Below, piece after piece: positions 2,553 to 38,153 of a DNA stretch of 45,308 bases. The stretch is from an uncultured Gammaproteobacteria bacterium (lineage in GTDB: Bacteria; Pseudomonadota; Gammaproteobacteria; Pseudomonadales; UBA5518): NCBI GenBank assembly GCA_903928015.1, contig CAIYPF010000059.1:1-45308 (forward strand). Reading direction: 5' to 3'. Below the pieces are notes generated by a model. That model searched no databases, was not told the DNA's origin, and saw nothing but the letters and a program-made list of their open reading frames with translations. The number at the start of each line of letters is the position of its first letter. The stretch's first letter is position 1. The translations under genes and the position numbers were made by a program.

Positions 2553-3499
2553 TGCTGCGCCTCTCGGCGCGTCACGGCCGCGGCGTGGAGTTCCACCGCA
2601 TCGCGCCGGAAGGGCTCAGCGTGGGCCGGGGTCTTGGCAATGCGCTGATCGTGTCCGATCCCTATCTGGGCGCAGAACAGTTCCGCCTGCAGCCCGATGA
2701 CGGGACGCTCTGGCTGGAGGTGCTGGATTGCACCAATCCGCTGCGCGTCAACGGTATGGTCCGGGCGCAGGAGCGCGTTGCGCTGCGTGCCGGTGATCGC
2801 ATAGAGATCGGGCGTTCGGTGTTCACGGTGCTGGATGCTGCTGCGCCGCTGCCGCCCGCGCTCTCGCTGGCGGCCTCGCCCTGGGAGAGGCTCGGCCTCT
2901 GGCGCGCGCCCATTGCGCTGATGCTGTTGCTGCTCGCGGGAGTGGTGGTCGGCGGCATCGACTTCCTGAAGAGCACCGGAGCGCCGCAGTGGGACGAACT
3001 CGCGCTCGCGGGTTTGACCATCTGTTCCATGGCGCTCGGCTGGGCGGCGTTCTGGTCCGCGCTTGCGGGGCTGCTCGGCCTGCATGCGGATTTCTGGGTA
3101 CATCTGGCGCTCGCAGCCATCACCGGCCTGCTGTGGTTCGGCGGCATGGAGGCCTTGACCTACGTGGCGTATGCCCTGGCCGCAGACGCGGAAGGCTTCC
3201 TCGCTGCGGCGGGATGGCTGATGGGAGCGGCGTTGATGTACCTGCTGCTCTCAAGCGCGCTCAGCCTCTCGACGCCGCTTCGTCATCCGGTGCTTGCCGC
3301 CCTGGCTGCCACTGCAGGCGCTTACGCGCTGATGGGCCTGCAGGACGTGGCCGAGCGGGACGACTTCGTGGCGCAGCCCCAACCCTATACGGTGCTGCGC
3401 GCGCCCTTCGCGAGGCTTCGTCCGGCGCTCGATTACCCCGCCTTCGAAGCGGAGGTGGGTGAGTTGTTCGCGGGGCTTCCCGAGGCCGAGGAAGACTGA
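2552..3499 (+). CDS. FHA-like domain membrane protein
   Basis: About 315 residues. The ATG at 2552 shares one base with the upstream TGA (TGATG), favouring translational coupling; an in-frame GTG at 2540 is the alternative. Residues 1-95 look like a forkhead-associated domain: VGRGLGNALIV, then NPLRVNG, then RAGDRIEIGRSVFTVL. The phosphopeptide-reading Ser-x-x-His of canonical FHA domains (YVSRRHA) is replaced by YLGAEQF, so phosphothreonine binding is doubtful. Residues about 110-280 contain five or six hydrophobic segments, placing the protein in the inner membrane with the FHA-like part probably cytoplasmic. The 3' end overlaps the opposing dehydrogenase gene by 67 bases. The role is unknown; context suggests a partner of the upstream secreted protease. 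Confidence 0.75.
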   Translation: MLRLSARHGRGVEFHRIAPEGLSVGRGLGNALIVSDPYLGAEQFRLQPDDGTLWLEVLDCTNPLRVNGMVRAQERVALRAGDRIEIGRSVFTVLDAAAPLPPALSLAASPWERLGLWRAPIALMLLLLAGVVVGGIDFLKSTGAPQWDELALAGLTICSMALGWAAFWSALAGLLGLHADFWVHLALAAITGLLWFGGMEALTYVAYALAADAEGFLAAAGWLMGAALMYLLLSSALSLSTPLRHPVLAALAATAGAYALMGLQDVAERDDFVAQPQPYTVLRAPFARLRPALDYPAFEAEVGELFAGLPEAEED

Positions 3500-5004
3500 G
3501 CGGCGCGCGAGAGCAGGAAGATGGCGAGCGCCCGGCGGTCTTCTTCCGAGAGCGGGTACACCGGCATCGGCGCACGCGGCGTGATGAAGAACGCAGCCAG
3601 CGTATCCACCCCGTAGCGCTCTCCAAGACTCTGCAGCTTGTTGCCCGCCGGCGTTCCTGCCGCGTGGCAGCCCGCGCAGGCGAAGCGCGCCACAAGCGGC
3701 TCTGCACGCGAGGTGGCCGCGGCAATGTCTGCCGCGCTGATGCCTGCCAGCGGGTCGCCCGTCAGTACAGGCTTTTGGGCGGCTGGCGCCGCAACGCTGC
3801 TTTGCGCGGAACTCGCACCGCGCCACAGGCGGTACACCGCGCCCGCGTAGTCATCGCTCACGAAGAGCTCCCCTGCGGGCGATTCCGCGATATCCACCGG
3901 GCGGCCGATGACGTTGCCGTCTTTCTCGAAACCGCTGATGAACGGCGTCTCGGAGATGATCCCGTCCGCTGCCCACTCGAGCCGTACCACCTTGTAGCCA
4001 TCGGCTTTGCTGCGGTTCCAGGAGCCGTGCAGCGCCACCAGCGCCGAGCGTGAAAGCGAGGCCTTCTGCTGATGCCGGAGGAAGTGGATGCCAAGAGGTG
4101 CGTTGTGCGCGCGGAAGCCGTGCGCCGGTGCCAGCGCCGTCTGCAGCGCCGCTGCGTGTCCTGCGCCGTTGTCGGGGTCCAGCACGTTGAAGCCGTTCAC
4201 GAAGGGCCAGCCGTAGAAGCCTCCCTGCACGATGCGGTTCAGTTCGCAGGGCGGGAAGTCGTCACCGAGCAGGTCCCGGCCGTTGTCGGTGGCGAAGAGT
4301 TCACCGCTCCACGGCGCCCAGTCGAAGCCCACGCTGTTGCGCAGGCCCGTGGCGTACACCGCGAGCTCCGAACCGTCCGGCTTGGCACGGAGCATCGTGG
4401 CGCGCCACGGGTGCTCCTCGATGCAGCTGTTGCAACTGGAACCCACGTGCACATACAGCCAGCCATCCGGCCCGATGCGCACGCTGCGGCTCCAGTGGTT
4501 GCCGCCCTCGGGCAGCCCGGTGATCACATGGGTGTAGTCGCCCGTGATGCGACCCGCCTGCACATCGAAGGGCACGCGGCCCACGGCGCCGGTCTCGCCC
4601 ACGTAGAGATAACCCCCGGAGACCTCCACGCCGTGCGGGCGATCGAGGCCGGACATCAGCACCGATTGGGAGTCCGGGTGGCCGTCACCATTGGCGTCAC
4701 GGCCCAGCAGCGTGATCTGCCCGAGGCGCGGCTGGCTCACGAGCAGGTCACCGGCCTCGGTGAGCCGCAGTACGCGCGCCTCCGGTACGGCGTCGGCGTA
4801 GAGGCCGAGCTGCCAGCCGGTCGGAGCCATGAGTTGCTGTTTCACGGTGGCCGGTTCCGCGCGTGGGCCGGGCGTGCCGCTCACGGAGTTCCACATCATC
4901 TTCCAGCTGGTGATTTCCACGTCCCGGGTGAGCAGCGCCGCTACCCCGACCAGTCCCAGCAGGGTTCCGGAAATGGCAATCAGGGCGGTCTTGAGGCGTG
5001 GCAT
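3433..5004 (-). CDS. PQQ-type sugar/sorbosone dehydrogenase with C-terminal cytochrome c domain
   Basis: A 523-residue exported protein. I place the start at ATG 5004 because GGAG precedes it by a suitable gap and the sequence opens with a signal or anchor (MPRLKTALIAISGTLLGLVG). A longer in-frame start at 5073 lacks a signal. Residues about 60-400 form a glucose/sorbosone dehydrogenase-type beta propeller (DRPHGVEVSGGYLYVGE, NHWSRSVRIGPDGWLYV, GLRNSVGFDWAPWSGELF). The family oxidises sugars or related alcohols with PQQ in the periplasm. A C-terminal domain carries one heme c site (CAGCH) and a plausible distal Met (PRAPMPVYPL), so electrons could pass directly to the respiratory chain. No PQQ synthesis genes are in the window. 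The last 67 bases run antisense through the FHA-like gene. Confidence 0.85.
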   Translation of the reverse strand: MPRLKTALIAISGTLLGLVGVAALLTRDVEITSWKMMWNSVSGTPGPRAEPATVKQQLMAPTGWQLGLYADAVPEARVLRLTEAGDLLVSQPRLGQITLLGRDANGDGHPDSQSVLMSGLDRPHGVEVSGGYLYVGETGAVGRVPFDVQAGRITGDYTHVITGLPEGGNHWSRSVRIGPDGWLYVHVGSSCNSCIEEHPWRATMLRAKPDGSELAVYATGLRNSVGFDWAPWSGELFATDNGRDLLGDDFPPCELNRIVQGGFYGWPFVNGFNVLDPDNGAGHAAALQTALAPAHGFRAHNAPLGIHFLRHQQKASLSRSALVALHGSWNRSKADGYKVVRLEWAADGIISETPFISGFEKDGNVIGRPVDIAESPAGELFVSDDYAGAVYRLWRGASSAQSSVAAPAAQKPVLTGDPLAGISAADIAAATSRAEPLVARFACAGCHAAGTPAGNKLQSLGERYGVDTLAAFFITPRAPMPVYPLSEEDRRALAIFLLSRAAQSSSASGSPANNSPTSASKAG

Positions 5005-18149: not shown

Positions 18150-18256
18150 GTCGGGGGCATGGCCCCCTCCTACGGGAAAACGGGCGGCCGTACGGGGATG
18201 CGGGTTGTCGGGGGCATGGCCCCCTCCTACCGGTAGGAGCGGGCCATGCCCGCGAC
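18150..18256. repeat. REP/BIME cluster, three palindromic copies
   Basis: Three 24-base REP-like copies lie between the GFA-VOC and DUF1214 genes. Copies at 18150-18173 and 18207-18230 read GTCGGGGGCATGGCCCCC then TCCTAC. The third, at 18233-18256, is inverted (GTAGGAGCGGGCCATGCC then CGCGAC). Each forms a stem around CATG. Copies two and three are head-to-head with two bases between, as in BIMEs. No REP-associated tyrosine transposase gene is in the window. The 156-base gap holds nothing else clear beyond the downstream ribosome site. Confidence 0.8.
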
Positions 18257-18296
18257 AGCAGCCTCTCCCGCAGCGAAACATGAAAGGAGAAACGGG

Positions 18297-35952: not shown

Positions 35953-35977
35953 GTGTTTTCTGGCAGAGGCAGTATTG

Positions 35978-37456
35978 ATGGACACGTCGGTGATTGATCC
36001 GCGCACGCCGGTGCTGGTGGGCGTGGGTGTGGTGCAGCAGAAAGAAAAGGATCCCGCACGCGCGGTGGAGGCGGTGGCGCTGATGACGCGCGCCGCGCTC
36101 CTTGCCGGGGATGACAGCGGTGCGCTCGCGCTGCTTGCGGAGCTGGATCGCATCTCCGTGCCGCAGGGCCTGTGGAGCTACTCGGATGCTGGCCGCATGG
36201 TGGCGCACGGGATCGGCGCCGGCCGTGCGTCCACCACCTGTGCGCAGGTGGGCATCCTCCAGCAGTCGCTGATGAGCGCGGCCTGCAGCCGCATCGCCGC
36301 CGGCGAGAGCCGCGTCGAGATGGTGCTGGGCGGAGAAGCGCGTTTCCGGCAGTTGCAGGCGCAGATTGCCGGTCAGGAGGCCCCGGAGACAGCCTTCTCC
36401 GGGGCGCCGGACGAGTGGCTGAAGCCCGAGGCCGAACTGGTGCTCGATGAGGAAGTGAACGGCGGCCTGGGCTACATGCCGGTCGGCTACTACGCGATCA
36501 TCGAGAGTGCCTTCCGGCAATCGATGGGTTGGGGCGTGGAGGAGCACCGCGACCGCATGGCCGCGCTCTACGAGCGCTTCAGCGAGATCGCCGTGCAGAA
36601 CCCCGACGCCTGGAAGCGCGAGCGGGTGGCCGCGGAGCAGATCCGCAACGCCTCCGCGAAGAACCGCATGCTGGCCTTCCCCTACACCAAGCTCCACAAC
36701 ACCTCGTGGAATGTCGATCAGGCCGCGGCGCTGCTGTTCTGCTCGGCGGGCGTGGCCAGCGAGCTGGGCATACCGCGCGAGAGATGGGTGTTTCCCCGCT
36801 CCGGCACCGAGTCCAATCACATGCTCGCGCTCTCGCAGCGGCCCGAGTTGCACCGCTGCCCCGGCGCGCAACTGGCAGGACGGCGTGCGCTGCAGCTGGC
36901 CGGTATCGGTGCGGAGGAGCTTGATCTCCTCGAGCTCTACTCGTGTTTTCCCATCGCCGTCGAGAGCTATGCCACCGAGATCGGCATCCCTCTCGAGGGG
37001 GATCTCACCGTCACCGGCGGCATGCCCTTCGCCGGAGGTCCGCTCAACAACTATGTGCTGCAGGCAACCGCACGCATGGCAACGCTGCTGCGCGAGCGCG
37101 GTCAGGGTACAGGGCTCGTCACCTCGGTCTCGGGTTACCTCACCAAGCAGGGTTTCGGCGTGTGGTCGATGTCGCCCGGCGAGGGCTTCGCATTTGCCGA
37201 CGTTACCGAAGAGGTCGCAGCGCAGACGCCCGCGCGTACGGTGTCCGCGCTTGTGGATGGCCCCGTCACCATTCGCGGCTGCACCGTGATGTACCAGGAG
37301 GATCGCGCCCTGTGCGCCGTGGCGGTAGTGGATCAGGCCGATGGCTCGCGCAGTGTCGCGAACAGCCAGGATACCGCCGTGATCGCGCGCGTGGAGACCA
37401 GCGAATGCTGCGGCATCAGCGCGCGCGTCGAAGGCGGACAGTTGAAGCTCGATTGA
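35978..37456 (+). CDS. thiolase-like protein type 1 (TLP1/SCP2-thiolase-like)
   Basis: A 492-residue thiolase-superfamily protein with the extra C-terminal domain of TLP1 proteins (about 415-492, ALVDGPVTIRGCTVMYQEDR). ATG 35978 is preferred over the adjacent TTG. Family-typical segments are TPVLVGVGVVQQKE, LDLLELYSCFPIAVESYATEIGI, TGGMPFAGGPLNNYVLQATARM and GYLTKQGFGVWS. The canonical thiolase nucleophile motif (NxxCxSG) is not seen, and the catalytic GHP His is replaced by GGP, as I recall for TLP1. Classical acetyl-CoA thiolysis is therefore uncertain; a carrier or retro-aldol-like role in CoA-ester catabolism is possible. It follows the P450 by 25 bases and probably shares its transcript. 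Confidence 0.85.
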   Translation: MDTSVIDPRTPVLVGVGVVQQKEKDPARAVEAVALMTRAALLAGDDSGALALLAELDRISVPQGLWSYSDAGRMVAHGIGAGRASTTCAQVGILQQSLMSAACSRIAAGESRVEMVLGGEARFRQLQAQIAGQEAPETAFSGAPDEWLKPEAELVLDEEVNGGLGYMPVGYYAIIESAFRQSMGWGVEEHRDRMAALYERFSEIAVQNPDAWKRERVAAEQIRNASAKNRMLAFPYTKLHNTSWNVDQAAALLFCSAGVASELGIPRERWVFPRSGTESNHMLALSQRPELHRCPGAQLAGRRALQLAGIGAEELDLLELYSCFPIAVESYATEIGIPLEGDLTVTGGMPFAGGPLNNYVLQATARMATLLRERGQGTGLVTSVSGYLTKQGFGVWSMSPGEGFAFADVTEEVAAQTPARTVSALVDGPVTIRGCTVMYQEDRALCAVAVVDQADGSRSVANSQDTAVIARVETSECCGISARVEGGQLKLD

Positions 37457-37874
37457 GCGCCGATGTGCAGGAGGGGCCGGTGCCTCCGACTGTGCCTGTT
37501 GATGCGCTTCTGTCGCGGGCATGGCTCGTTTTCACGAAAAGATGTCGCGGGCATGGCCCGCTGGCGAATGCCTCGAACGAGCGATTCGGGCCGTGGCTCC
37601 TCCCGGTGAGCGGCCTTCAGCCGCGAGATCGTCGGGAACGATCTCGCGGATGCAGGCAGCCGACGCACAGGGATGTGCGGCGGCGTGAGCGAACAGGGAG
37701 GAGCCACGGCCCGAAGCGCGGCAGCTGCAATCCGAATCGCGGAAGCTGCAATCCGAAGCGCGGAAGCTGCAGTCCGCCGCGCGGAAGCTGCAGTCTGCCG
37801 CGCGGAGGAAGCAATCCGCAGCCAGGAAGCAGCAATACAGAGGCGAGCAATCCAGACGCCGAACGAAGCGCCTC
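37457..37874. repeat. gene-free mosaic of REP-like palindromes and nested inverted repeats
   Basis: This 418-base gap between convergent genes has no convincing coding region. In order: two REP-core copies (TCGCGGGCATGG at about 37513 and 37545) around a TTTTC-AC-GAAAA hairpin; a perfect 20-base inverted repeat with arms at 37585-37604 and 37696-37715 (TTCGGGCCGTGG... / ...CCACGGCCCGAA); inside it GCGGC-CTTCA-GCCGC (37610-37624) and a perfect 12-base stem CCGCGAGATCGT / ACGATCTCGCGG (37621-37649). These last two share bases 37621-37624 and so cannot form together. The 21-base tandem repeat listed separately follows. Confidence 0.8.
37717..37842. repeat. 21-bp minisatellite, about six copies
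   Basis: Tandem units of 21 bases begin at 37717, 37738, 37759, 37780 and 37801, with a decayed sixth at 37822. The consensus starts CGCGGAAGCTGCAATCCG. Because 21 is a multiple of three and units lack stops, several frames are open. One + strand frame (37673-37918) gives heptads such as AAIRIAE, AAIRSAE, AAVRRAE. I treat this as a repeat, not a gene: there is no ribosome site and the frame runs antisense into the PHA-protein gene. Confidence 0.85.
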
Positions 37875-38153
37875 TCAGCCCAGATGCTCGTCCAGATAGC
37901 GCTCGATCTCCCGCGTGAGCGCGGATTTGAGCATCAGCATCAGCACCCCGAGTTTCACGTCGACCAGGATGTCCTTCTGCTGCAGCGTGAGGCGCGCATC
38001 GATGCCGCCGGAATAGCTGTAGTGCACGGTGTCGCCTTCCCAGCGGAAATCCCCGCCGTACTCGGACTTCAGCTGTTTCGCCAGCGCCTCGGTGCGCTTG
38101 CGCAGCGTCTTGCGATCGAGCGCATGCTCGCGCTGCAGATAGATCCGGCTCAT
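37875..38153 (-). CDS. polyhydroxyalkanoic acid system family protein
   Basis: A 92-residue protein matching the small PHA_gran_rgn family linked to polyhydroxyalkanoate metabolism. The start ATG 38153 (MSRIYLQREHALD) follows AGGAG; the frame continues upstream without support. Conserved features are REHALDRKTLRKRTEALAKQL, DTVHYSYSGGIDARLTLQQKDILVDVKLG and the C-terminal amphipathic LKSALTREIERYLDEHL. Its exact role is unknown; relatives are thought to associate with granules or regulate them. No PHA synthase is in the window. It is divergent from the patatin gene and faces the repeat-rich gap at its 3' end. Confidence 0.85.
   Translation of the reverse strand: MSRIYLQREHALDRKTLRKRTEALAKQLKSEYGGDFRWEGDTVHYSYSGGIDARLTLQQKDILVDVKLGVLMLMLKSALTREIERYLDEHLG

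Follow-up and report, generated by a model that had tools for sequence, protein, structure and literature searches.

Miniature folding repeats are common in bacteria. The closest described system, YPAL, is a miniature intergenic insertion described for Yersinia and Erwinia, and an effect on RNA stability has been suggested for it (PMC2229807). The motif CANGGAYG, which recurs below, is the published site of RsmA in RsmV (PMC9308961) and agrees with the CsrA site RUACARGGAUGU obtained by SELEX, mostly in 6-nt loops (PMC7652899). Here we describe a locus in a 45,308-nt contig of an uncultured Gammaproteobacteria bacterium (CAIYPF010000059.1; the window), where a repeat between two genes is very probably one copy of a non-autonomous, MITE-like dispersed folding element. 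We found a family of such repeats, its fold, covariation and strand asymmetry within that fold, and the filled and empty states of one site. The family appears to be new, and we found no record of it. Together with look-alikes across the class it makes a clean case, in which the sequence itself reveals fold, strand and loop motif.

The 418 bp between the convergent genes of the locus are made up of REP-like units, the element and a minisatellite. The upstream gene (35975-37456, + strand) is a thiolase-like ORF, also predicted by the gene caller, whose match to Pfam Thiolase_C_1 (4.7e-5) falls under the curated cut-off; it ends 121 bp before the element starts. The downstream gene (37875-38153, - strand; gene caller) encodes a PHA_gran_rgn protein (Pfam, 5.2e-21). 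When positions 37457-37760 were searched against the DNA of the own genome (4.27 Mb, 220 contigs), 63 match rows came back; 42 fell in the REP-like part of the query and the remainder in the element or its tail. The REP-like part, a repeat pair at 37511-37562, holds two units (TGTCGCGGGCATGGCYCG) of a separate family that is abundant in the genome. This family (GTAGGAGCGGGCCATGCCCGCGAC), which occurs in tandem clusters and again in the window at 18204-18259, is an ordinary REP/RAYT set. Like REP units flank the Y1 transposase locus L022 (1122-1985).

The element itself (type A, 149 bp, 37578-37726, + strand) was delimited by genome matches and by R1, a covariance model built from 8 copies, under which it scores 166.5 bits, the window copy being one of the eight. 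At its right end begins a 21-bp minisatellite (37711-37836, + strand; TRF, repeats). On the evidence of its units, the minisatellite is a tandem amplification of the right end of the element, and would have arisen by tandem slippage of the right arm. Of the 30 copies that have enough flanking sequence, 5, among them that of the window, are followed by tail-like units, compared with 4 of 600 flanks after shuffling. The locus shows how a minisatellite can arise from the end of a miniature folding repeat.

An earlier note on this DNA had described nested inverted repeats here. These are real and far beyond chance: folded as RNA, 37578-37726 reaches -105.9 kcal/mol, compared with -66.5 +/- 3.8 in 200 shuffles (z -10.3). 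The 20-base perfect repeat of that note matches at 20/20 positions, 37585-37604 being the exact reverse complement of 37696-37715, and with mismatches allowed the arms extend to 37581-37607 and 37693-37719 (27 nt, 93%). In the fold, two hairpins sit on a three-way junction that is closed by an outer stem of 24 pairs. The left arm of the stem (37581-37604, + strand; fold, covariation) pairs with the right arm (37696-37719, + strand; repeat search, fold). Hairpin 1 (37621-37649, + strand; fold, exact-pairing check) is perfect, with 12 bp; TCGGGAA is invariant in 8/8 copies, and its loop is CGGGA, not ANGGA. Hairpin 2 (37659-37684, + strand; fold, loop counts) carries the loop AGGGAT in the context CAGGGATG, which fits CANGGAYG. 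Loops and junction are conserved in the 8-copy alignment.

Hairpin 2 is the conserved second hairpin and is absent from the earlier note, which had proposed two competing hairpins sharing four bases. Because the note gave no coordinates for them, we took as the competitor GCGGC-CTTCA-GCCGC (37610-37624, + strand), which, by eye, does share 37621-37624 with hairpin 1. The competitor is not conserved: it is intact in 4 of 33 copies, a count in which the script misplaced at least two and probably five copies, none of them intact by eye. The further claim that GCGATTCGG at 37581-37589 can pair with CCGAATCGC at 37732-37740 holds, the two being exact complements. The native partner of 37581-37589 is 37711-37719, with one mismatch, and the partner at 37732-37740 is part of the element's right end repeated in tandem.

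The element has many copies. At E<=0.001, R1 found 15 distinct places in the own genome (19 rows minus 4 minus-strand shadows), the window's, truncated copies and short forms included; several are cut off by the end of a contig or are short forms that lack the head. In the short forms L143 30-103, L146 3001-3060, L110 3001-3070 and L135 3001-3070 the outer stem is kept and the hairpin head is gone, by eye as if the middle had been deleted. Six of 145 genomes searched with the family model matched. Five of the six are from the genus of the window, with 3 to 19 rows each, shadows included; the sixth, G052, is from the same order and gave only a weak match (E 3.6e-5 over that genome). Among named contigs, a scan picked out 19 stretches from three MAGs that appear to be the same genomes as G001, G004 and G005; the genus is represented here by draft genomes only, the three named ones being MAGs. 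For the MAG that corresponds to G004 (CAMAXE01 records; L078-L084, L087, L088 and L092), the label Klebsiella pneumoniae looks wrong given its kinship to the genus. Two subtypes, A (that of the window) and B, have a common architecture. By eye, a B-type copy at L121 2333-2454 seems to carry an extra hairpin inserted in the loop of hairpin 2.

Like a MITE, the element has inverted arms, no coding capacity and many copies. Among the 58 copies used for gene context (those of >=50 bits, G052 left out, from 66 places), 2 overlap a called gene. Copies often lie in inverted pairs, their 5' ends towards each other at a distance of about 100-640 bp and often with REP units between (L097, L102, L103, L107, L109, L113, L121, L134, L142), and between the two inverted copies of L097 the DNA at 3149-3705 resembles a transposase fragment by eye. 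An Rfam search of the window and seven own-genome copies gave, at the element, only matches far under the gathering scores, none above chance; elsewhere in L003 it matched 6S RNA. Plasmids and phages held no match to the element, and viral contigs none to one exact pattern of it.

The window site exists in a filled and an empty state. It is filled in G000 and G001, the G001 copy being broken by contig ends. In G005 the stop codons of the same gene pair are separated by 5 bp, and the gap in G004 is similarly short; neither holds the repeat. These MITE-like filled and empty states come from the window site only. By parsimony, the short gap would be the ancestral state. We made out no target-site duplication at the window site, where three repeats together form the insert. 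Of the 40 copies in the genus whose neighbours are both known, 23 are flanked by convergent genes, compared with a background of 39 of 232; copies between tandem genes are oriented 8 to 7, without bias. Gene context was counted where the gene caller was usable, in the genus (83% coding) and in G391 (73%), smaller sets being left out. Since a tail-to-tail bias has been reported for other intergenic repeats too, as in P. fluorescens (PMC2718517), the convergent bias may only mark where insertions do little harm.

The earlier note had suggested a structured RNA and had called for covariation across relatives. Among 33 type-A copies, in an alignment fitted to the model with few gaps, 31 of 55 pairs changed on both sides, and 96.4% of cells were paired, compared with 85.1% after shuffling; none of 500 shuffles reached the observed values, and slid structures fell to 35-42%. 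The note had set three observations together against its reading, namely no covariation, no transcript and a dispersed family behind both arms; of these, the dispersed family proved true and the absence of covariation false. Mismatches on the + strand comprised 69 G-T and 6 A-C cells (20 and 5 columns), though these are not 75 independent events, as one column gives 13 of the 69 and the copies are related. Because G-T outnumber A-C 69 to 6, the + strand, with its GGGA loops, would be the folding strand. The structured reading is thus supported in the form of a structured single strand. The next 19 rows, aligned to the A model, gave 44 G-T and 21 A-C, with hairpin 2 opposite at 4 to 8; they are 3 truncated A copies, 15 B-type copies and 1 short form.

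The copy of G052, with two CAGGGATG hairpins on a long stem, led to look-alikes of YPAL type throughout the Gammaproteobacteria. An exact head pattern, drawn from this copy, occurred in 18 of 274 genomes of the class, against 1 for the reversed control. With one mismatch allowed, the pattern occurred in 19/19 genomes searched, 18 of them preselected with its exact form, and at 217 places in G391; the reversed control gave one match in the 19. Although arm sequence varies by copy, 52 of 56 class-wide copies have pairing arms of >=18 bases. These 52 arms, which include orthologs and near-identical copies, show 40 G-T and 16 A-C, and 21 loci show changes on both sides at 32 of 35 pairs. The proposal that the YPAL-type arms are unique captures of target DNA was dropped, as arms within a genome are often related with compensated changes. 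A model of the heads, R2, built from 21 of the 30 loci L148-L177, matched 54 of 274 gammaproteobacterial genomes at E<=0.001.

With filters off, R2 failed to recognise the copy in the window (14.8 bits, E 0.15, at 37595-37707), and two REP palindromes in the window outscored the element at 21 bits; for comparison, L127 of G052 reached 84.8 bits (E 1.1e-20). In the reverse test, R1 matched 17 of 25 YPAL-type loci at E<0.001 on the head strand, but also 4 of 25 on the other strand. The long stem alone therefore scores, and the test is partly specific. Because R2 misses the window element and the reverse test is only partly specific, we do not file the element as YPAL, which it resembles in architecture. 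YPAL itself, known from Yersinia and Erwinia, appears to be a single instance of a kind that spans the class.

One copy-rich genome, G391, was sampled for what follows over 1.2 of 5.1 Mb, with gene context taken from the first 0.4 Mb. An unbiased inverted-repeat scan of 400 kb gave 41 repeats, 27 of them with the head. C1 of G391 (L254-L273) holds 71 heads in 400 kb and another inverted-repeat family with arms CACTGCCATTAAGTTAAG. The arms of the heads show 27 G-T and 5 A-C. Among 70 intergenic heads, 22 lie between divergent, 18 + 17 between tandem and 13 between convergent genes, and 1 further head lies within a gene. Replication-strand bias was weak at best: forward and reverse counts in four blocks were 27/44, 18/23, 17/10 and 8/10, none below p 0.05. 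Outside chromosomes, a plasmid search with the 58-nt head returned one Halomonas record covering 43% of the query, without an annotated feature, and phages gave no match to the YPAL-type head. On viral contigs, 17 of 18 stretches found by the YPAL-type pattern were rejected, having no armed head (by eye, single-sequence folds); one, L195, looks real. Literature searches by the head letters gave nothing relevant by title among the matches listed, and those on Marinobacter or Halomonas repeats found none.

The family and its look-alikes suggest a testable partner, CsrA/RsmA. The + strand RNA might bind the protein dimer through its GGA loops, the copies acting as decoys or as 3'-end sites of mRNAs; we regard this as unlikely. 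Among 53 copies of types A and B, 48 have a hairpin 2 loop that fits CANGGAYG. In G391, 60 of 78 loops of YPAL-type heads fit it exactly (N over all 78: T48 G13 C11 A6), the 78 having been picked by their flanks and not by loop letters, and a dozen or so looking like chance matches. The + strand wobble bias and the two CsrA-family genes of the own genome also fit. Against the idea, the loop of hairpin 1 lacks ANGGA, and most SELEX hairpins have <=4 contiguous pairs (PMC7652899), so that very stable stems may be poor ligands. Orientation is unbiased in tandem genes of the genus and of G391 (17 heads on the same strand, 18 on the opposite), which argues against a simple mRNA role, and Rfam models the relative Ysr224 on the other strand. 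We also found no promoter-like site, which is weak evidence, as the scan expects none by chance. Binding of CsrA by the element is a guess. A wider proposal, which we offer as tentative and doubtful, is that dispersed palindromes across the class, with YPAL one case and the element outlying, carry CsrA/RsmA sites on a fast-evolving, always complementary stem and form a distributed CsrA decoy spread by transposition. If this were true, hundreds of copies in at least one genome (217 in G391) would serve as a decoy for the global regulator CsrA. No paper joining YPAL or MITEs with CsrA was among the matches listed, in which few subscription papers were covered.

Perfect arms could also come from mutation bias, template switching repairing imperfect palindromes, and not from selection. 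In the five closest ortholog pairs we counted 5 GT/WC, 2 AC/WC, 6 WC/other, 2 other/other and 1 kept double change. Close orthologs thus change mostly on one side, whereas paralogs differ by many kept double changes, as mutation bias would have it; selection on the fold of each copy is therefore weak or slow. All 20 ortholog pairs together gave 31 GT/WC, 10 AC/WC, 36 WC/other, 79 kept doubles and 5 broken doubles; here the B-type rows had to be fitted to the A model and some of the pairs are uncertain, and we relied on the five. However, a strand-symmetric DNA process would give equal G-T and A-C, and the G-T excess is therefore not predicted by it; the conserved loops and junction speak against it as well. 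We judge this explanation improbable. Recent movement is not seen, since orthologs of many copies occupy the same sites in other species.

It is more doubtful still that a REP transposase (RAYT/Y1) recognises the element as single-stranded DNA and that the element is a kind of REP or BIME. The element often lies among REP-like repeats, Y1 matches occur in 12 of 14 genomes tested, and the strand asymmetry would suit a single-stranded DNA substrate too. However, none of 30 Y1 loci has a YPAL-type head within about 1.5 kb, 4 of the 30 being from the genus of the window, where the YPAL-type pattern would miss type A or B. At the 4 Y1 loci of G000 and G004, R1 gave only 16-22 bits, at two of them (L022, L291), so that the element does not flank RAYT genes there, and G052 and G381 have heads but no Y1 match. 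The relic of REP-like insertions imagined in the earlier note was right in kind: both arms are accounted for by a dispersed family, which a true REP-like family adjoins at 37511-37562, but the element is not tied to Y1/REP transposases at the loci tested. That the element is a bidirectional terminator, the note's double terminator, is very improbable despite its convergent setting and very stable hairpin, as it has no T-run or U-tract, the sole terminator-like site in 37400-37950 lies within the neighbouring REP (0.4 expected by chance), and two relatives with short gaps manage without it.

We therefore return to a MITE-like dispersed element. Its + strand would fold, as RNA or single-stranded DNA, into a long stem bearing two GGA-loop hairpins, and this fold would be what a trans-acting factor recognises during copying. 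We found neither a transposase nor any other partner for the element, Y1 being the only kind sought. Copies would be tolerated, or survive, mostly between convergent genes; read-through transcripts there would form a fold at the 3' end and might gain protection from it, an effect already proposed for YPAL in Yersinia.

Among known systems, YPAL is like the element in being a miniature intergenic insertion with internal inverted repeats and with filled and empty sites (PMC2229807). In the published RU-2 sequence (PMC2759123), a long stem bears CAAGGATG and CATGGATG hairpins, the same head as at the YPAL-type loci. In the element, by contrast, hairpin 1 has the loop CGGGA and the conserved TTTACGGCGT-like strand is absent, so that of the two CANGGAYG hairpins on a long stem that mark the YPAL type, hairpin 2 fits in the 48 of 53 copies given above and hairpin 1 does not. 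The Rfam family Ysr224 (RF02770) matches the minus strand of YPAL-type heads, at best L151 with 51.3 bits (E 6e-9; gathering score 70), but is missing from the matches at the window element, which were taken up to E 5. Judging from L151, L165 and L161, this Rfam family resembles a YPAL-type repeat read on its minus strand, and the sRNA curated there could be transcribed from a repeat. ERIC and other bacterial MITEs resemble the element in size, in dispersed intergenic copies and in folded transcripts (PMC2229807), whereas the element is GC-rich, and TA ends and target duplication were not seen. REP/BIME sequences with RAYT are likewise extragenic and palindromic, but the element is longer, has a three-way junction and shows no RAYT link at the loci tested. 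TwoAYGGAY RNA (RF01731) and sponges of the CsrB/RsmZ type share with it paired GGA hairpins, with predicted or known CsrA binding (PMC4333381); the element differs from them in having no Rfam match and in being a dispersed repeat and not a dedicated sRNA gene.
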